A stretch of 64,000 bases of DNA. Origin: Cokeromyces recurvatus (lineage: Eukaryota > Mucoromycota > Mucoromycetes > Mucorales > Mucoraceae). The notes below the pieces were generated by a model. The model ran no database searches. It saw only the letters and a list, made by a program, of their open reading frames with translations, and was not told the origin of the DNA. Location of the stretch: the NCBI RefSeq assembly GCF_025118155.1, contig NW_026251396.1:372001-436000 (forward strand), read 5' to 3'. Shown one piece after another: positions 1-64,000 of the stretch (within the stretch, counting starts at the first letter, position 1; each line of letters begins with the position of its first letter). Made by a program: the position numbers and the translations under genes.

Positions 1-598
1 ATACACCGTCGTCGGACTTTGAAAAAATTTCCTTTTATGGTATTACCACTAGTAGTGATAACCTACAGCTTAAATATATTGGATTGTCCAGTCTATTAGG
101 AACGAAGTAGAGAACCAGCCAATAGAAGTAGAGTACAATCTACCGTTTAGAATTAATAGGCAAAATAAAAGAAGGTTTTAGCCGATAGTAAAGGATTCAA
201 ACGTGAGAAGAAAGAAGTCAAAATTATGCATAATTTGTGAAAATAGAAGACGTCGGCATAATTAGTTGACAACATGAGAAAATTAAGAAGACAACACTTA
301 CGCATCTTTATTATAATCGCGATTCTCCCTGTTGTCACATAAATTTTATTGTTGTAGCAAATTTAATATAAATATAGAGAAATTATTAATTTTGAATAAA
401 GATAACCATTAAATATTATAAAAGTTGATTATATTTTTTGTTATTTTTGCTTAATACTATCTGAAGTTTTACTCCTTCGTACCTCAAGAAGTCAAGAAAC
501 GACAAAGTCGGTATTTTTTTCACTAATAATATATTAGAGAGCCATTTCCATAGAAGAAAATCGCATTTTTCAAAGTCCGATGGTGGTATATGGGAAAG
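1..598. repeat. Possible small inverted-repeat element
   Basis: No convincing gene is seen here. The first ~30 bases and bases ~568-598 form an imperfect inverted repeat sharing the core cggactttgaaaaa. Short reading frames entering from both ends encode a similar PPSDFEK/PSSDFEK motif, so the two ends may be inverted copies of one former coding segment. The left edge is cut by the window. This is repeat-derived sequence by appearance only. Confidence 0.3.
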
Positions 599-920
599 GA
601 TCCACAAAAAGGTAAGGGATGTAGACACAGTCTTTTTCTTGATTGACTGCATTTTTATTTGTCACGGAGTTAAGCAAGGCTTTGGAAGCTACAACAGTCT
701 TTCTTTTGTCTTTAAATTATTTAGGTGTTGAACATTCTCTGGCAACTTCACCATAGCCATGGTCTTGAAGTTTAGAATTGTTAATTGCTATTAACCTGAG
801 ATCCATTTTCATTTTTACCCCTAACGAAAGTAAAGATCCAGGAATCGTATCACCCCTAAAAAAAAAGAGTTGTTGAATGAGAACATAGGTCACGTAAAAT
901 GCAACAAATTAGTATATATT

Positions 921-1640
921 GTTATGATTGTAGTAGCCTTTATAATTAAGTTAATAGAAATAAACCATCATTTATTACATAATAAAGAGGTTATTCAAAT
1001 AAAACTAATATATCGCGCTTCACAGCATAATATTCATTCTACTCTCAGTTTTGATAATAGTAATTGTTTGAATATTCGAGCATTAAAAATAATTATATAC
1101 ATTATATTATGTAATAATAATAATTCAATAGAATTATGACTGTTATATTCAATTACATAATTATTTATAAGTTATACATATTATATATGATAGCTATAAA
1201 GATGAGTTTTGTTATGTAATAATATCTTATAGGATAATAATAATAGTAGCATATAAATAATTGGTATTGCTATAGCTGACATATTCACTGTGAATTAATA
1301 TTGACGCGTCGCTTGCCCCAGAAATAATAATTTAATATTTTTAGTAACAGCGACAGCTCAGGCAGAAAAGAATAAAAATAGATCTTATTGTAGGCAGAAT
1401 TATTCGGAGAAAATATTTATGACTAATGCTTTATTATAGCAATAATTGCTTATCCAAATCATAGTTCTATTAATATCACTTATCTTGCAAAAACATATAA
1501 ATAACCTTTTACATTTTCACATAATTTTTCCTTGTACAATTTTTGTATTATTTTCTTAATAAAAAACTACACGAAGTTTTCACAGACTTGTCTTTTATCT
1601 TTTTCTCTTTCTTTAACTTTTTGTTTATCAAAACATATAT
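921..1640 (+). repeat. Long terminal repeat of inverted type, left copy A
   Basis: A ~700-bp AT-rich repeat beginning gttatgattgtagt. It matches, in inverted orientation and along most of its length, the sequence at about 5690-6338, and matches a second direct copy starting at 2921. Shared landmarks in order are a segment with aaataaaccatcattt, the cacagcataat segment, the gcagaattattcg segment, and the gtacaatttttgtattat / gttttcacagacttgtc end. This copy lies next to the broken minus-strand gene at 1640-2591. I could not identify a convincing target-site duplication. Confidence 0.65.
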
Positions 1641-26815: not shown

Positions 26816-28296
26816 GAAAATATTATACCTTAAATAATGTTAAGGGAAAGTTATAGAGGGACATTATTCAAGCAATTGCTAAACTGGTTTACGGAATGTT
26901 GAATAATATTTTGAAGATGCTCAACAGGTACTTCTTCACTGGCCTCAATAATTCTTGAAGTAAGCGTTTCAACGTCATTAAGTTTACTTCGCTTTACTTT
27001 TCCCTTAAGAATGAACCAAAATTGATCTACTGGGTTGAGTTCGGGCGAGTAGGGAGGAAGATATAATGGCTTAGAACCCCGACTTACAATTACAGGGCCA
27101 ATCATAGCAGGAATATGAATTGGAGCATTGTCCACAACAATAAAAAATCCTTTCATTTCTGGGAACTCATCCATAATATCCATAGTATCGTTAAGAAACA
27201 AAAGACAATGATCGCCAGTAGTGCCACTGGGAATAGTTAATTTATCTTCAGGAGCCTTTCTTTTTTTGGCCCCTACAACTTTCCTTCTCTCAACATTTCC
27301 AGATTCTCGCCTCGCATACTCACATTGACGACACCATTAGCTGATATTGCACCAAGAACAGTATGTGAGGTAGCCTTGGTGGAAGGAGTTGTGGTAGTTG
27401 CTTTTTTACCGCGCCATGGCCAACCACGACTACATCACATATTAATATCAAATCCGGACTCATCAACAAATATACAAGTGTCGAGATAATTGACGCCATT
27501 GTTGATCAATTTCTCAACCCATTCAGCAAGAACTTTAAGATTTTTATCTTCGTTTCTGGCAAGAGGGTGTTGGTTATTAAGTTTGATGCTGAGATTACAT
27601 TCTTCCTTCATGAACTCGGCTACTCTTGTTTTTTTTATTTGTAAGCCAGCAAAGTTGGCTGTCAAGCTTTCAACTACGTTCTGGATTGCTGCAGGTGAGT
27701 CATTATCAAAAAAACTGGTTAGATAGACCTTATGAGCTTCGTTCAGTTGACTGCCTGGTATGTTGGGATTCAGGTTCGTCTTTTTGATAGGAATCTTCCT
27801 TTCCGGATCATCCTCGTAAGCCTTTTTCCATTTGCACGCTGTGTTATAATTTACATTTACGGCTATGGCTGCATCTTTTGGTTTCATGAGTTTTTCTTTC
27901 AAAAAATAAAAGTACCGTCTACGGTCTTCCATTGTATAAACGTTATACTCAAGAGGTCTTTCTTTCTTTGGACTAGCCTCTTTCATGACTGTATCGTCTG
28001 AACTGATCGTTTCAAATTGGAGACCCTTATTCTTAATGTATTTTCGAAGATCTGTTAATCTTTACAAACGAAAAGACTTCTCTTCAACATATGTTGTTGC
28101 TTGCTTGCCTTGTTCATCAATGAGATTACCAGCACCATCTTCATAAACAATATTTATGCTCATTTTAAAAATAATCTCGAAATAATGGTATAAAAAAAAG
28201 TAATAAAATATACCTCAGATAAAATGATCAAAAAAAGTGATCAAAAGATGTCCAATTGAGTTTCAAAAACTCGTCCAATTGACGGCGGACATACTG
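26684..28296 (-). mobile_element. Tc1/mariner-type DNA transposon (~1.6 kb)
   Basis: The ends are inverted: left cagtgcgtccaccatcaatt (from 26684), right, on the other strand, cagtatgtccgccgtcaatt (ending 28296). The right end is followed by TA (28297-28298). At the left the expected TA is now TG. One transposase gene fills it on the minus strand. Flanking DNA rejoins in the reading frame of the host gene, which fixes both borders. Confidence 0.85.
26851..27986 (-). pseudogene. Mariner-like transposase, inactivated
   Basis: The N-terminus has a helix-turn-helix DNA-binding part (MKPKDAAIAVNVNYNTACKW), then the first catalytic Asp block CIFVDESGFDINM, the second VVDNAPIH, and the third YSPELNPVDQFW. 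By my count 34 residues lie between the second and third acids, i.e. DD34D. Two lesions are visible: an in-frame TGA right after GFDINM (~27437), and a one-base frameshift near 27317, after which the open frame resumes (ESGNVERRKVVGAKKRKAP) through to the stop at 26851. Catalytic residues are intact, so decay looks modest. It lies wholly inside the host gene and on the same strand. Confidence 0.85.
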
Positions 28297-54723: not shown

Positions 54724-56157
54724 TTAATTAATGGTAATAGATTTGGTAACGGAAGGAACGCCTTTAGGGACAGTGATAGTAAGAATACCATTTTCCAACT
54801 TGGCTTCAATTTTTTCAACAGCAACATTACTATGAAGAGGAATAACACGAGAGAAGATACCAAACTTTCTTTCCTTGAAACGAGCTTTATCCTCTTCACC
54901 AACAACGGTCTTTACCTCTGCAGTTAATTTCAAGATATTGTCTTTGACTTCAACTTTCATGTCTTCCTTATGAACACCTGGAAGCTCAACATAAAATTTA
55001 AAATCAACATCTGTTTCGTAGACATCAACAACAGGAGTCAAAGTAATCTTGTAATTAGGACTGAGAGGACATTTTTCACTTTGAGGAAGAACACCACCTA
55101 CAGGACACTTGGGGCTATCTGTCTTTTTTTTATCATTATTAGAAGCAGCAGCACTCATCATAGGGCATTTAGATACATCGACACTACCATTACTATCGGC
55201 AAAAGGACACTTTGCAGGTTCCTTCTTTTCCTCTTGAGTTTCATCATCTGACTTTTTCAAAGGAGGAACCTGAATACCTGCCTTTTCAAGAACTTTATGA
55301 CCATAGGGACATTCTTCAGCAACACGGTGACCATAAGGACATTCAATAAAGAATTGATCAAGGTAATCAGGGTGAGAAGACTTGTTGTGTTGATGCTGAG
55401 CAGGAGAACTAAGTTTCTTATCCACAATTTCACGACCATAGGGACATTGTTCAGTAGCACGACGACCATAAGGGCATTCAGTAAAGAATTCTTCTACATA
55501 ATCATGATAATTACCATGATCATCTCCCTTTGAACCTTTTGTTATTCTACGGGCATAAGGACATTCATTAGCTACACGACGACCATAAGGGCATTCAGTA
55601 AAGAATTCCTTTGCATAGTCAGGATGTCTGGACTTTGAAGCAATCTCACGACCATAGGGACATTGTTCAGTAGCACGACGACCATAAGGACATTCAGTAA
55701 AGAATTCCTTTGCATAGTCATCTTGATGATGATACTTACGACCTGACTTTTTCATTGCTTTCTTATGAGCCTTATCAACGATTTCCCGGCCATAAGGGCA
55801 TTCATTAGCAACACGCTTACCATAAGGGCATTCAGTAAAGAATTCATCTACATATTCAGGGAAACGTCCATAATAAAAGCGACTAGCAGTGTGTTTGTTG
55901 TTGGTCTTCTTCTTTTTCTTTTCAGCAAGTTCACGACCATAAGGACATTCATTCGTTGCGCGTCTACCATAAGGGCATTCATTAAAGAATTGGCTTGCAT
56001 AATCAGCAAAGAAAGAAGACTTCTTTTGGTTATCACCTAGAGCTGGACAAGCTGAAGCTGCTTTACGACCATAAGGGCACTCTGTGAAAAATTCGTGAAG
56101 AAGTTCATCAACACGGCGTTCAACACGTTCTTCAACATTGTCTTTAAATTCAGTCAT
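54724..56157 (-). CDS. Small heat-shock protein with seven CX9C / Cys-Pro repeats
   Basis: An intronless 477-residue protein. Residues ~371-477 are an alpha-crystallin (HSP20) domain: VYETDVDFKFYVELPGV, then KEDMKVEVKDNILKLTAEVK, and the closing KLENGILTITVPKGVPS. The rest is unusual. Residues ~17-290 hold seven repeats of about 30-40 residues, consensus DYxxEFFTECPYGRRATEQC-PYGREI, each with two cysteines ten positions apart (27/37, 61/71, 110/120, 156/166, 189/199, 228/238, 273/283). Four more Cys-Pro motifs follow (KCPFAD, KCPMMS, KCPVGG, KCPLSP at 317, 331, 351, 363). All 18 cysteines in the protein precede proline, and none is in the crystallin domain. Cys-Pro dipeptides are known as heme-regulatory motifs in other proteins. 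Heme or metal binding is my inference. A chaperone role is expected from the domain. Confidence 0.9.
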   Translation of the reverse strand: MTEFKDNVEERVERRVDELLHEFFTECPYGRKAASACPALGDNQKKSSFFADYASQFFNECPYGRRATNECPYGRELAEKKKKKTNNKHTASRFYYGRFPEYVDEFFTECPYGKRVANECPYGREIVDKAHKKAMKKSGRKYHHQDDYAKEFFTECPYGRRATEQCPYGREIASKSRHPDYAKEFFTECPYGRRVANECPYARRITKGSKGDDHGNYHDYVEEFFTECPYGRRATEQCPYGREIVDKKLSSPAQHQHNKSSHPDYLDQFFIECPYGHRVAEECPYGHKVLEKAGIQVPPLKKSDDETQEEKKEPAKCPFADSNGSVDVSKCPMMSAAASNNDKKKTDSPKCPVGGVLPQSEKCPLSPNYKITLTPVVDVYETDVDFKFYVELPGVHKEDMKVEVKDNILKLTAEVKTVVGEEDKARFKERKFGIFSRVIPLHSNVAVEKIEAKLENGILTITVPKGVPSVTKSITIN

Positions 56158-57615
56158 TTTTTTCCCTATTATTAATGTAAGAATGAGATAAATTAAAAAA
56201 AAAAAAGAAAAAAAAAGCTAGAACAATAAAAAAAAAATACTCCTTATATATGTATTTTATTTTATTTTTTTTTGGGGGGAGAAGAAGAAAACAATAAAAA
56301 GAAATTAACTCCGTTTTATTATATTATTTGAAATAATAATACCACGAAATCATACAAATATGCATTTTTCTATCATATTCTATTTTTCTCCTTTAACTAT
56401 TGATAAATATAAGCTTATTATAAGAAAGAGACTATCTAATGGACTATGACAAGTTTATATATAATTAATAAACGTTGATTTTGTACCACCTGTCATTTTT
56501 ATTTTATTTTTTTCTTTTTTTCTTTTTTTTTTTTTTTCTGCTTATTGTCCTTGAATCGGTAATGTCTTCCGTACCTCCGACACTAATAAAGAAAATAGGT
56601 CCATCTTATTAGTAAATCATATCTACATCTCTTTTCGAATTAACAATTATGCTACATATAGATGTATATATTCATATATATCCATTTTATAACATGTAAA
56701 ATCAAAGCCATTATGAAAAAAAAAGGAAAAATGCTTCATGTTTGATGCATCTTATTGTTCTCTTCTAAAACCAATCAAAGATCACCTTTGAAACCTAGTT
56801 CAAAAAGAATAGGGTTTTTTTTTTAAAACATAAATATTTTTGTTTCATTTAAACAATAAGCTGATATGTATCGCGAGTTTAATAATTTTCTATTTTAAGA
56901 ATAAAAATGATTATTTTCTTCTGCTACTATTATCATTGTTAAAAGACCGAACTTTTCAAATAAAATAAAACTCATCATCAACATGTTAATTTTAAACAAC
57001 AAAGAGAGAAGAAGGATAGAGTCTGTCAATTTAATAACGAATGCTTATTTTTCTTTTTAACTATCATTATATTAACAAATATTACAAGTATTAGATAAGC
57101 TTGTTTTATATAGCTTTTTTTTTTATTTCCATTCTTAAAAAAAAATTTACATTAAATATCATATATTACAATAGAATGCTTCGTATCTTTCTTTAATTTA
57201 TATAGATAAATATTTTATGACTTTTTAAGGTATGACAATGTAAGTGTCCTTCCAAAAAGGATTTATTTGTAGTTGCCTAGCAGCCGAGTAAGTACGACTA
57301 AACTCTGATCTTTATTATTCATATTCTATAGTAAATTCATTTTTCGCCTTTGTAGTAATCTGAGTTCATTCAATTCAGGGGAGGAAATAGGAAAAAGGCA
57401 AATAACACTTTTTAGCTTATAGGAGCCATTTTCACAGAGGATGGACGGTAAAACACTATTGCATAAATACAATGAATAATAATTTTCTCAGCAAACAATA
57501 GAGATTGTGCTACATTTAAATATCGGAGTCAATTCATTTTTTTTTTTTTTTTTGCATCGTCCTCTCTCCTCTCTTTTCCCCCCTCCCCCACACACACATT
57601 ATTTATTTATTTGTA
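56158..57615. other. Divergent intergenic region, sHSP / dienoyl-CoA reductase
   Basis: About 1.46 kb without a supported gene. It must contain both promoters. I looked for heat-shock elements (alternating GAA/TTC) upstream of 56157 and saw none convincing. A CCAAT box is present at ~56769. A pyrimidine tract followed by CA repeats lies just before the ATG at 57616. Confidence 0.5.
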
Positions 57616-58992
57616 ATGACTGTAGTAGTAGAGACAACTCAGATTTTTAAAGATAATCTTTTTAAGGGAAAAGTTTTATTTTGTTCTGGAGGTGGTAGTG
57701 GTATTTGTCGTAGTATGACCGAAGCAATGGTCAATCATGGTGCCAAAGCTGTCATCTTTTCTAGAAGGTAAATCATGTTTTTTTCATTCATTCAATAAAT
57801 GATCTAATTTTTTCATCACAATTGAATTTTTAAAAGTAAGGACAAATTAGAAAAAGCTGCAAGAGAAATGTGTCTAAAGACTGGTGGCGAAGTTTTGTAT
57901 GTTCTTTACTAAACAAAAAAAAAAAAAAAAAAAAAATCAAATAATTTATTTATTTATTTTTATAGTGCTATCGCTGGTGATGTTCGTAATCCAGCTGATA
58001 TTGAGAGAGCTATCAAGGTGACAATCGAAAAATATGGTCAACTTGATTTTTTAATTAATGGAGCAGCTGGTAATTTCTTATCTTCTTTCAATGACTTGAG
58101 TTATAATGCATTTCGTACCGTTATTGAGATTGATTTACTTGGTACGTTTAATTTGACGAAAGCTGCTGTTGAACATCTTAAGAAATCAAAAGGGGCTATC
58201 ATTAATGTTTCTGCAACCTTACACTATACGGGGACTCCTTTTCAACAACATGCTGGTGCGGCTAAAGCAGCGATTGATGTAAATAAATTATATATTTAAA
58301 ATAATCCCTCCTTTTTTCTTTATAATTGTTTCTATATAGGCTCTGACTAAGCATTGGGCAGTTGAATTAGGGCCTCATGGAGTTCGTAAGTTTTCCTTGT
58401 GAAATGTATAAAGAAAAAAAAAATCAATATGCTCATTTGTTACTTTTTTTTTTTATTAGGTGTAAATGGTAAAGATGGGAAAATAAAAACATCTTTATTA
58501 GAACTTGTACAACTAATTTTTTTTTCTTTTTAATATTTTATCTGAACAGGCATTGCACCTGGCCCTATTGTAAGTTGAAGTAAAAAAAAAAAATAAGTGA
58601 GATATTCATGACTTATTTAATTCTATGTTTAGGCTTCAACAGTAGGTATGGAGAAACTAGGTCCTGCTTTTGATACTAAGGGTGTTCCTTTGCAGGTAAT
58701 ATATATACTACTACTATTAGAAACAAATAATAATTCAATTTTGATTTAATAAAAGCGAATGGGTGAAGTTCAAGATATCGCTCAATCTACTGTTTTTCTT
58801 TTCTCTGAAGGAGCTAGTTATATTACCGGTGTAGTACTTGTCGTAGACGGTAAACATTTGATAAAGATAAAACACACACACACACCTATACATATATCTT
58901 ACTAACTATTTGTATTAGGGGGTGCATGGTTAAATCCTTCTTATCCTAACTATCCTGATATTGTTCTTTCAAATATTAGCTTTAAGCTTTAA
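57616..58992 (+). CDS. Peroxisomal-type 2,4-dienoyl-CoA reductase (SDR; Sps19/DECR2-like)
   Basis: Reduces 2,4-dienoyl-CoA with NADPH so that polyunsaturated fatty acids can enter beta-oxidation. It starts [20 protein letters not shown]. The NADP-binding loop is [15 protein letters not shown] (Cys in place of the last Gly, as in yeast Sps19). Further motifs are [54 protein letters not shown] with AGAAKAAID (catalytic Lys), and GVRVNGIAPGPI. The last is built from very small exons, including a 9-nt exon at 58460-58468. The C-terminus is ISFKL; FKL is not a canonical PTS1 tripeptide, so peroxisomal targeting is uncertain. About eight exons. Confidence 0.9.
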
Positions 58993-59297: not shown

Positions 59298-59720
59298 TTA
59301 CTCAGTTGCCATCAATAATTTAATCTTTGCAATGGCAGTACCAGGTTGAAGTCCCTTTGGACACGTCTTTGAACAATTCATGATAGTATGACAACGATAA
59401 AGAGACATCTTATTTTGAAGCATTTCACGACGTTCACGACCATAATGATCACGCGAATCCACCATCCATCTAAAGGCTTGCAACAAGACAGCAGGACCTA
59501 AATATTCTTCTTGATTCCACCAATAAGAAGGACATGAGGTTGAGCAACAAGCGCAAAGGATACATTCATAGAGGCCATCTAATTTTTTTCTATCTTCAAT
59601 GGATTGCAAATTTTCTTTTCCTGTAGGAGGAGGTGTCTTTTGTTTCAAATAAGGCTCAATACTTTTATATTGTCTATAGAAATGTGTTAAATCAGGTACT
59701 AAATCCTTAACAACGTTCAC

Positions 59721-60922: not shown

Positions 60923-62318
60923 TTATTCTTTTAATAAGTATCCACGAATGACATCACTCAAAATAGCAAAATTGACAGGCTTCGAAATATAAGTTGAGAA
61001 CCCGCATTCTAGGCATTTGTTGGCTACATTACTCATGACGTTAGCAGATAAAGCAACAATAGGTATAGGTGTTTCCTCGGGCCCTAGATGCTCTTTTTCC
61101 CATTCTCGAATTTCACGAGTCGTTTCATAACCATCTATATGGATATTAATTTTCAAGTATTTTAGCGGCTTTATATATGTATATATATATATGTAAAATC
61201 TTACCTTTAACAGGCATGAATAAATCACAAAGAATTAAACAATAATAATCTTTTGGATGCTTATGAAATAACTCGATACATTTACCGCCATGTACAGCTA
61301 CATCTACAGTTAATCCAACTCGAGTTAAATACCTTGTTAAAACTTTTTGATTTACCAAGTTGTCTTTTTTTTTTTTTTTTTTTTTTATAGTAATAATATT
61401 TAGAGAGAGAGAGAGAAAGAGAAGGGCATTAGTATCTATGTTATTGATGTGTATACACATATACATATACATATATGCATATATATAATTTACCTTCAAC
61501 TAATAATACTCTATAACCTTTTCCTCCTACATCATCTGCCATTCTTCTGAATATTTCTTTTTGTGTAGCTGCTCTTTTACAAGGTGTATCAGGCGTAGAT
61601 ACAGTACTTGTTCCTTCTATCGTCCTCTCGTTATTATTGGTTGTTGTCGTTCCTTTGTCGTTAGTCGATGATGATGATTTTTGTTGCTGACGAATACCAA
61701 AATACCATCGTAATTTATTTCGTTTTAAGGGTTTAAAAATAAATCCACAATTTTGAGGTATCACTTGACTTTCTTGGCTTTTTGCCATTTCTGTAATTGA
61801 AGAACGTTGCATAGGTGTAGTCATGATCAAGACGCTTGCCTTTTGTTGATGTAAGGAACCACATATGGTTCTTGTTAAAATTAAAATCTGTTGTTCAGAA
61901 GACAAATTAATCATAATGTAGTCATAGGGCGCAGTTTGAGGATCTGTAAGTCGTTCAGTGGCTTCAATTTGATTGGTTACTGTATCAATTTCATAATACG
62001 GAGTCTCTTCCTCTTGACTTGCAATACTACTCAGAATTGATTTTACATGGTTTTCCATGGATTCACGTGAATATTTCCATTGGGAGACAACTAGGGCACG
62101 CAAAGGAGAAGTACGGGTAGGTGTTCGAGGGGGTAAAATAACATGATTTTGTGTAGTAGCAAAGCTAAATATGTGATCTGAATTGACTTTAGTATGACAT
62201 GGATCGCAAGTAGATTGAGTAGATAATTCTGACTTGTTTTCTTTCCTAGAAGACATGGAAGACAAAAGGATATCATTACCTAGTGACGTAGTTGCTGTTG
62301 CTGTTGCTGTTGTTGTAG

Positions 62319-62349
<31 letters not shown>

Positions 62350-64000
62350 TACTGCAGGTGTCACAAGATGATGATTATTTCTAACTGGAGGGGGTTTCAA
62401 TTGCATATTGGCTGCTTTATTCATCAAGACATCTTGAAGGATTTCAGCTTGTGATACATCCGATGTAGTAGCAGTAGTAGTAGTGATAGTGGGTATAGAT
62501 CGAGCTTTTGTTGGCTGATTGTTATTATTATTAGTATTATTGTTATACGTTTTATTTACATACGATAGTTTATCATGTGCAATTGAATTATTTTCATAAC
62601 CATTTGTACGAAAGAATGGATCATGATTAGTTTCATTTTGAGGTGTTTGTGGTAAAGGTCGAGTTTGAGAAGTTGGAATACCAAATTTAACTGTGAAATA
62701 AAACGTAGATCCTTTACCTTTCTGACTACGACATTTCATAACACCTCCATGAAGTTCAATGAGTTGACGTGAAATAACTAGGCCAAGACCACTACCTCCA
62801 TGCTTTCTTGTGCTCTAATACCAAAAAAAAAAAAATGTTATTTTATCTCCAAATAAATAAAATAAATAAATAAAACTTACAGAACTATCCACTTGAGAAA
62901 ATGGTTTAAACATAACTGATTCATCAGCAGCATCAAATCCAGTACCTGTATCGATTACTTCGAATAGTAAAGTCAATTCTGACTCTTCTATATCGTTCTT
63001 TTTAATAGTACATCGAGTAAAGACTTCACCTTCGGATGTAAACTTAATGGCATTCTGTGAATTTAGAATACAGTTAGTAAGTAGTACACTCCAAATCATG
63101 AAGAATCATTTCATTCACTTACACCAATCAAATTAAGTAAAACTTGTCTTAGACGTATTCTATCACCTATAACTACATCAGGTATGTCATCATTAACCCA
63201 GAAACTTAACTCTAAATTTTTCTGAATAGCCAAAGTTGACAATAATTCATTCGCATCTTCAATCATAGTAACAAGACTAAAAGGCTCCCATTCCAAATTC
63301 ATCATGCCTGCTTCTACCTTACTAAGATCCAAGATATCGTTAATGACAACTAATAACGACTCTGCTGATTGTTGAATTGTATGAACATAATCCATTTGCT
63401 CAGGTGTCAATTCTGTATCTAATAAAAAATTAAGCATGCCTGTAATGCCAATCAATGGTGTACGAATTTCATGAGACATATTGGATAAGAAACGTGTTTT
63501 ACTCTCTGTTGATTTTTGTGCTGCATCATGTGCTTCTTTCAGTTTTTGTTCTAGTAATTTATGATCATTGATATCAGTACTATATAAAATTGAATATATA
63601 TACAAATATTTGTATATATGAGTAAATGTTTAAAAAAAAACCCCCCCATTCAAAGACATTTTTCTTTTCTCTTACCAAGTACCAAACCAACGAATATCAC
63701 CAGTATCTAACTCATCCACTGAAACACATTTAACCAAAAACCATTTATATTCTTCTTTTGCACTTGATAGTCGAATTTCATTTTGCCATGAGATACCTGC
63801 TCGATTCGTAGATAAAGAACTTAAATCTGGTAGTTGAAGTTTAGATCGATCATCAGGATGAACACAAGACATAAAACCAAGTCCCATTGTTTGATCAAAC
63901 GATTTTCCAGAATATTTACTCCATTTCCCATTTGTATATGTCAATCCAGCGCCAGGTGAAAAGGTAAATACAATTTGTGGAATAGCTTCAGCTAATAATC
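60923..64000 (-). CDS. Hybrid histidine kinase, 5' end beyond the window
   Basis: A multi-exon gene entering from the right edge. It has a PAS fold (KWSKYSGKSFDQTMGLGFMS and following CVHPDD, ending WFGTW), then HisKA with H-box SNMSHEIRTPLIGITGM. The HATPase follows: N-box NLIG-NAIKFTSEG across an intron, G1 EVIDTGTGF, F-box FKPFSQVD, G2 GGSGLGLVISRQL. A ~400-residue low-complexity linker (Asn/Thr/Ala runs) comes next, then a receiver domain: VLLVEDN-LVNQKVLTRYL, phospho-acceptor Asp in LILCDLFMPVKDGYE, PIVALSAN, YISKPV. It ends RGYLLKE at 60923. It autophosphorylates and passes phosphate to its own receiver, then presumably to an HPt protein and the stress MAPK cascade. The receiver is split by two introns, the first with a T tract. 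Confidence 0.92.
62280..62360 (-). repeat. In-frame GCT/ACA-type repeats in the kinase linker
   Basis: Triplet runs encode Ala-Ala-Ala and Thr/Ala-Thr tracts ([24 protein letters not shown]) in the linker between the HATPase and receiver domains. Likely length-variable and outside folded domains. Confidence 0.8.

Follow-up and report, generated by a model that had tools for sequence, protein, structure and literature searches.

Small heat-shock proteins (sHSPs) are widespread, and little is understood about what is sensed by their N-termini. A reverse-strand gene in the window, the stretch of 64,000 nucleotides of Cokeromyces recurvatus DNA analysed here, raises this question: it encodes an sHSP in which an N-terminal part of approximately 370 residues, holding 18 Cys, precedes the HSP20 domain. 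What might such an array of thiols bind or respond to? The open reading frame (ORF) of this Cys-Pro-repeat small heat-shock protein (CP-sHSP) was complete over 477 codons from ATG through stop, and an intron was not needed to read it. The features of the gene were as follows:

54724–56157, reverse strand: coding sequence of CP-sHSP, 477 aa (ORF list)
56014–56106, reverse strand: repeat 1, residues 18–48, Cys27 and Cys37, second motif CPAL (motif scan)
55912–56004, reverse strand: repeat 2, residues 52–82, Cys61 and Cys71 (motif scan)
55765–55857, reverse strand: repeat 3, residues 101–131, Cys110 and Cys120 (motif scan)
55627–55719, reverse strand: repeat 4, residues 147–177, Cys156 and Cys166 (motif scan; alignment gap in 10 of 14 homologs)
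55528–55620, reverse strand: repeat 5, residues 180–210, Cys189 and Cys199, second motif CPYA (motif scan; alignment gap in 6 of 14 homologs)
55411–55503, reverse strand: repeat 6, residues 219–249, Cys228 and Cys238 (motif scan)
55276–55368, reverse strand: repeat 7, residues 264–294, Cys273 and Cys283 (motif scan; unit comparison with five homologs)
55060–55212, reverse strand: linker with four KCP motifs (KCPF, KCPM, KCPV, KCPL), residues 316–366, predicted disordered (motif scan, model)
54730–55020, reverse strand: alpha-crystallin (HSP20) domain, residues 380–476 (Pfam PF00011, PDB match to S. pombe Hsp16, Foldseek 3w1z)
54730–54738, reverse strand: C-terminal I-x-I type motif, Ile474-Thr-Ile476 (sequence; Ile474 at least 90% conserved)
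56158–57157, reverse strand: upstream 1 kb scanned for heat-shock elements (no three-unit element with one mismatch or fewer)

By its C-terminal domain, CP-sHSP belonged to a known family. The Pfam family PF00011 (HSP20) matched residues 380–476 with 61.9 bits (cut-off 20.8), and the domain was matched in all 15 family members. The closest solved relative by sequence was S. pombe Hsp16 (PDB 3w1z, E = 4.6e-15), which was also the closest by fold (E = 3.5e-9) among the best 50 of 646 Foldseek matches, these 50 being sHSPs or alpha-crystallins. CP-sHSP shared with Hsp16/Hsp26-type sHSPs the HSP20 domain, predicted beta strands and a C-terminal I-x-I motif (ITI, residues 474–476). It differed from them in carrying the Cys-Pro array of approximately 370 residues where they have a short variable N-terminus. 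The small size and short variable N-terminus usual for sHSPs were thus not found, as the N-terminal part was conserved among the homologs and the protein was more than twice as long as its canonical paralogs from this genome (191–208 aa).

Pro followed each of the 18 Cys. Fourteen Cys formed seven pairs with a spacing of exactly ten residues (27/37, 61/71, 110/120, 156/166, 189/199, 228/238 and 273/283), and the remaining four (Cys 317, 331, 351 and 363) were located in KCP motifs. A typical unit was DYAKEFFTECPYGRRATEQCPYGREIASKS. A preliminary description of this DNA had reported an HSP20 domain fused to a repeat region, Cys pairs ten residues apart and four KCP motifs; the PF00011 match within one ORF and the motif positions agree with it on each of these points. 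It had also described a regular ECPYG-x6-CPYG repeat, which holds for the seven pairs and for the 12 of 14 paired motifs that read CPYG, but full regularity is broken by CPAL at Cys37 and CPYA at Cys199. The residue preceding the paired Cys was E or Q in 13 cases and Ala in one. CP-sHSP contained no CC, CXC or CXXC, and no two Cys were closer than 10 residues. Across 15 sequences (CP-sHSP and 14 homologs), Cys made up 4.3–6.7% of the N-terminal part and each protein had 11–19 Cys-Pro motifs. In 21 other ATG-initiated ORFs within the window, Pro followed 0 of 83 Cys, a rough figure as many of these ORFs are perhaps not genes; the count missed a 4Fe-4S ORF with two Cys-Pro motifs (59298–59720) because it lacks an early ATG. 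When CP-sHSP was shuffled 20,000 times, the maxima were 8 Cys-Pro motifs and 5 ten-residue pairs, compared with 18 and 7 observed. The shuffles retained residue composition only and ignored unit duplication, so that they exclude composition alone as the source of the pattern, and conservation is the stronger evidence.

A search with the whole CP-sHSP returned 21 matches (P0001–P0021), within the bounds set by protein length and by the need for shared 5-residue words. P0001–P0014 were near-full-length homologs with the repeats and the HSP20 domain in one predicted protein, and P0017–P0021 were HSP20 domains whose alignment spanned only 19–22% of the query. A profile built from six N-terminal parts recovered the same 16 repeat-bearing proteins plus P0022. 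With the last 128 residues as the query, 25 matches were obtained, including P0023, P0024 and P0025; the other 22 were more distant sHSPs (27–47% identity), three of them named Dictyostelium. Nine of the near-full-length homologs carried species names: Benjaminiella poitrasii, Mucor bainieri, M. fragilis, M. ambiguus, Parasitella parasitica (two), Pilaira anomala, Helicostylum pulchrum and Thamnidium elegans. All these genera belong to the Mucoraceae, based on a taxonomy look-up. The Benjaminiella homolog was nearest to CP-sHSP, with 67% identity in the search and 71% in the alignment. Database names of the homologs were 'hypothetical protein', 'unnamed protein product', 'HSP20-like chaperone', 'HSP20 family protein' and 'heat-shock protein'.

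Alignment of the 14 homologs to CP-sHSP gave 252 Cys cells, of which 39 were gaps (missing repeats or stretches) and 213 could be compared. Cys was identical in 212 of the 213 cells and the adjoining Pro in 208, whereas identity was 51% (1914/3775) elsewhere in the N-terminal part and 60% (900/1492) in the HSP20 part. Sorted by residue type, conservation in the N-terminal part decreased from Cys (99.5%) through Pro (82%), Tyr and Gly (79% each) to Phe (76%). The His residues of CP-sHSP were identical in 74 of 165 aligned cells. Seven, six and five repeat units were found in four homologs each and four units in two, P0012 being scored as having four because its first unit lacks the second Cys; two to four K/R-C-P motifs followed the repeat array across the family. 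In the alignment, the first and last units had counterparts in all 14 homologs and the middle units varied. The selection on the Cys-Pro pattern that had been proposed earlier is therefore borne out, and a check on repeat copy number and conservation in relatives gave 4–7 pairs in a layout common to the 14 near-full-length homologs. A chance origin of the pattern is ruled out by the shuffles together with this conservation. The statement that no Cys lies outside Cys-Pro was right for CP-sHSP itself and too strict for the family: the 14 homologs together had 235 Cys, 209 of them in Cys-Pro, and the 26 without a following Pro were spread over all homologs except P0002, P0004 and P0012. Given near-invariant Cys and Pro against 51% identity elsewhere, we conclude from the sequences that CP-sHSP is a member of a conserved sHSP subfamily, known so far from the Mucoraceae.

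Unit-by-unit comparison of CP-sHSP with its Benjaminiella homolog placed six of seven repeats best at the same rank, and repeat 2 preferred repeat 6 (0.77 vs. 0.73). These same-rank matches do not favour a recent runaway duplication of the repeats, as judged against Benjaminiella. In five homologs compared (P0001, P0002, P0009, P0011 and P0014), the last repeat matched best with the last in every case, and the first with the first in three, with a tie in P0002 and a failure in P0014.

Several database entries carried only part of this layout. P0015 (281 aa, on a 2439-base contig) and P0016 (264 aa, on a 1045-base contig) had CPYG and KCP motifs without an HSP20 domain and are either cut-off contigs or a repeat-only relative; P0016 contained nine K/RCP motifs. 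P0023, a 144-aa entry for CP-sHSP's own gene, started at an internal Met and comprised the HSP20 end only. The model of P0025 (Mucor lusitanicus CBS 277.49, 122 aa) began at an internal Met just ahead of the last KCP, and the Cys-Pro array may have been left out of the M. lusitanicus annotation. P0024 (170 aa, with contigs of up to 14912 bases) was listed with an N-terminus without CPYG units and had KCR and KCS in place of its relatives' Cys-Pro motifs; like P0025, it was assigned to the family through a shared PQSEKC stretch. The HSP20-only entries P0023 and P0025 and the repeat-only entries P0015 and P0016 point toward a separate repeat gene. We read these four as truncated models or contigs, an explanation that is unproven. 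A separate gene for the repeats is not favoured, given that 14 homologs combine both parts in one predicted protein; with the single ORF, they uphold the earlier view of one protein. P0022 was labelled 'Rhizopus arrhizus' (G6F42_026275, 956-base contig), the only name outside the Mucoraceae among the repeat-bearing family members. Since Rhizopus belongs to another family, the contig is short and the protein was 91% identical to that of Mucor ambiguus, the label is doubtful and the contig is probably mislabelled or contaminating.

Profile searches did not place the N-terminal array in a known family. The N-terminal 370 residues had no NCBIfam match at E = 1. On the whole CP-sHSP, Taeniidae_ag (38.6 vs. 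31.9 bits) and CBM_19 (28.9 vs. 20.1 bits) exceeded their Pfam cut-offs, and at E = 0.01 they matched 12 and 11 of the 15 family members, respectively. Single repeats reached at best 12.3 bits (E = 0.15) for Taeniidae_ag and 13.8 bits (E = 0.061) for CBM_19, and no single stretch passed either cut-off alone. We treated both as weak matches summed over the repeats, which is a judgement rather than a proof. The zf-CCCH_PARP12 family matched four of the 15 members at E = 0.01, CP-sHSP not being among them. A yeast metallothionein profile matched a four-repeat piece below its cut-off (E = 0.036; 15.1 vs. 25 bits), and the clustered CXC, CC and CXXC motifs of a metallothionein-like protein were absent. 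The 5-aminolevulinate synthase presequence, a carrier of heme regulatory motifs (HRM), was absent from the Pfam matches of CP-sHSP at E = 1.

AlphaFold2 models of CP-sHSP and of the shorter homolog P0011 were both made from one common set of 15 sequences. In the CP-sHSP model the HSP20 domain was recognisable and had predicted beta strands, with ten-residue pLDDT means of 61–82, apart from one loop (41) and the last residues (44). The repeats were modelled with low confidence (ten-residue means of 32–66, and 32–70 in P0011), and the KCP linker (pLDDT 30–38) was predicted to be disordered. Cys-Pro motifs are poorly characterised in the PDB and tend toward low-confidence regions of models, according to the available portion of PMC11101860. 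Three short helices were drawn for most repeats of CP-sHSP. In these two low-confidence models, the paired Cys was at a helix break in 14 of 14 cases in CP-sHSP and 10 of 10 in P0011. This result is partly built in and lends weak support, because the sequence set was shared and Pro alone breaks helices or favours a helix start.

The preliminary description had proposed a chaperone under the control of heme, metal or redox state. We interpret CP-sHSP as a putative thiol-controlled sHSP for which heme is the likeliest predicted ligand, and we assign this reading a probability of approximately 40%. Cys-Pro is a known mark of transient heme sites. In the available text of PMC10377097, heme-binding Cys-Pro motifs are mostly located in loops between two helices and are predominantly five-coordinate, and the HRM consensus of Hap1 is given as K/RCPV/I in that of PMC9491583. 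Several features of the family are consistent with heme: the near-invariant Cys-Pro, at least one strict K/RCPV/I motif in all 14 homologs, the position of the Cys at predicted helix breaks, and the His-rich N-terminal parts of P0002–P0009 (6.4–8.4% His), which would suit either heme or metal. Other features speak against it. His was less raised in CP-sHSP (3.6%), P0001 (4.8%) and P0010–P0014 (3.2–5.2%), the paired motifs do not fit the K/RCP consensus, and only one of the four KCP motifs of CP-sHSP was a strict K/RCPV/I. Positive charge is usually favoured in heme-binding peptides, and the net charge of the nonapeptides around the Cys of CP-sHSP was zero for 15 of 18 sites and negative for three. 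A fungal precedent is S. pombe Hhy1, which binds hemin according to the part of PMC13135908 available; this binding was weakened when the CPC motif was lost, whereas losing the CP motif caused no reduction. The dispensable CP motif of Hhy1 is also a warning that such a motif need not bind.

Mechanistically, each repeat would form three short helices with one Cys per break, leaving the thiolates exposed, and the HSP20 domain would drive assembly into an oligomer with many Cys-Pro sites on its surface. The repeat sites, together with the HRM-like KCP linker beside the chaperone domain, could then bind heme transiently. Binding might switch the chaperone through its order, oligomer size or client binding; alternatively, the oligomer might buffer surplus heme under stress. 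In either case labile heme and folding stress would meet in one particle displaying 11–19 Cys-Pro motifs per subunit. We advance this more specific proposal, a heme-regulated or heme-buffering sHSP, only tentatively.

The same thiols could serve other purposes. In a metal-binding chaperone, which we consider unlikely, Cys pairs and linker His would ligate zinc or copper, serving as a metal store or buffer or holding the N-terminal array locked, and metal loss under stress would free the chaperone. The near-invariant thiols and the high Cys content, combined with His of up to 8.4%, agree with this explanation, but it leaves the conserved Pro after every Cys unaccounted for. Moreover, CC, CXC and CXXC were absent, all Cys were at least 10 residues apart, the His were not positionally conserved, and single repeats of CP-sHSP matched zinc-finger families only below cut-offs. 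By simple helix geometry, the two Cys of a pair would lie at the ends of a predicted 9-residue helix, approximately 15 Å apart, so that a single metal site would have to combine Cys of different repeats. That geometry also bears on a redox-switched chaperone, a rather unlikely candidate, in which oxidation would form disulfides between repeats or subunits, change the oligomer and make the protein a thiol sensor of oxidative stress: a disulfide within a pair would be disfavoured if the intervening helix is intact, as the two low-confidence models predict. In sHSPs the N-terminal part governs assembly and client binding, and near-invariant, regularly spaced thiols in this part fit such a switch, although it too leaves the Pro conservation unexplained and CXXC is absent. 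As far as profiles tell, the CX9C spacing does not reflect a CHCH fold, since no CHCH family was among the Pfam matches listed for the 15 members at E = 0.01, or for CP-sHSP and its seven single repeats at E = 1. Twin CX9C mitochondrial proteins likewise place two Cys at this ten-residue spacing in helical surroundings; the Pro after each Cys and the HSP20 fusion set CP-sHSP apart, and the resemblance is one of spacing only.

A further explanation gives no role to the thiol: the aromatic FFxECPYG would be a client-binding or self-assembly motif and Cys-Pro a mere helix start. The N-termini of sHSPs bind clients through aromatic residues, and Phe, Tyr and Gly of the N-terminal part were also well kept. 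Cys, however, caps the N-terminus of a helix poorly relative to Ser, Thr or Asp. Its replacement in only one of 213 cells, although these residues cap helices as well or better, indicates that the thiols matter, and the four KCP motifs lie in a predicted disordered stretch, beyond the reach of helix capping. We therefore regard a purely structural repeat as improbable. What distinguishes the heme reading is the Pro, which is near-invariant and unneeded for zinc ligation or a disulfide; it thus appears to matter in itself, favouring CP-type heme sites.

A search of its own genome (28 Mb) with the whole protein (E = 0.001) found only the CP-sHSP gene; that search was insensitive to distant kin and did not list the HSP20 paralogs. 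With the N-terminal part as the query (E = 10), this gene was again the sole match. An HSP20 profile detected at least three paralogs (208, 191 and 200 aa) with 0, 1 and 0 Cys, respectively, no Cys-Pro, and 26–27% identity to the HSP20 domain of CP-sHSP. The 1 kb upstream of CP-sHSP contained no three-unit heat-shock element with one mismatch or fewer, compared with 0.385 expected from single-base shuffles, an expectation so low that the absence alone says little. The same length upstream of the three paralogs contained 1, 2 and 4 partly overlapping one-mismatch elements (0.3–0.4 expected each), at least one of them within about 300 bases of each ATG. Across the whole window, 19 such elements were counted against an expectation of about 31. 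The upstream counts hint that CP-sHSP may be regulated differently from the three paralogs.

The neighbouring ORFs, of kinase, Tim17-family and 4Fe-4S type according to Pfam, appeared unrelated. The 4Fe-4S dicluster ORF (59298–59720, reverse strand) resembled a succinate dehydrogenase iron-sulfur subunit, with Pfam matches to Fer4 families only. An exon start at 57616 resembled a short-chain dehydrogenase and had no Pfam match alone. Two ORFs at 61441–63605 (reverse strand) were apparent pieces of an intron-bearing hybrid histidine kinase. ORFs resembling helix-turn-helix/DDE transposase genes were observed at 27435–27986 (reverse strand) and, at locus L005, at 55–1200 (forward strand), the latter adjoining a canonical sHSP gene.

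Among the matches listed from open-licence PubMed Central, no sHSP with heme regulatory motifs or with such an N-terminal array was found; within that scope, the earlier remark that no system with this layout had been described stands. A study of HSP20 in Blakeslea trispora (PMC12071634) does not appear to describe a protein of the CP-sHSP kind: in its available text, the forward primer encodes PATDMIE, as in the canonical paralog of L005, and we therefore read the study as concerning the canonical kind. CP-type HRM proteins (yeast Hap1, HO-2, BACH1, IRP2 and PER2) resemble the family in having Cys-Pro dipeptides, several of them more than one, with Cys at a helix junction, here predicted with low confidence, or in predicted disorder, and in the K/RCPV/I of the homologs' linker. 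They differ in that no common domain was found, most CP-sHSP motifs read (E/Q)CPYG, and heme binding is here only predicted. Hhy1, also fungal, carries CP and CPC motifs and binds hemin (PMC13135908); the likeness noted is one of motifs, and 'hsp20' and 'heat shock' are absent from the available text of that paper. CP-sHSP is thus an sHSP of a known family by its domain, with an N-terminal array that is apparently new, a description elsewhere being possible.

An array of near-invariant thiol motifs that varies from four to seven pairs among related fungi makes both ligand and function testable by titration and repeat removal. If the ligand is heme, heme handling would be linked to folding stress in Mucor-family fungi. 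As far as is known and was found, CP-sHSP would then represent the first case of heme regulatory motifs built into an sHSP, and also a protein for handling heme that is confined to Mucor-type fungi.
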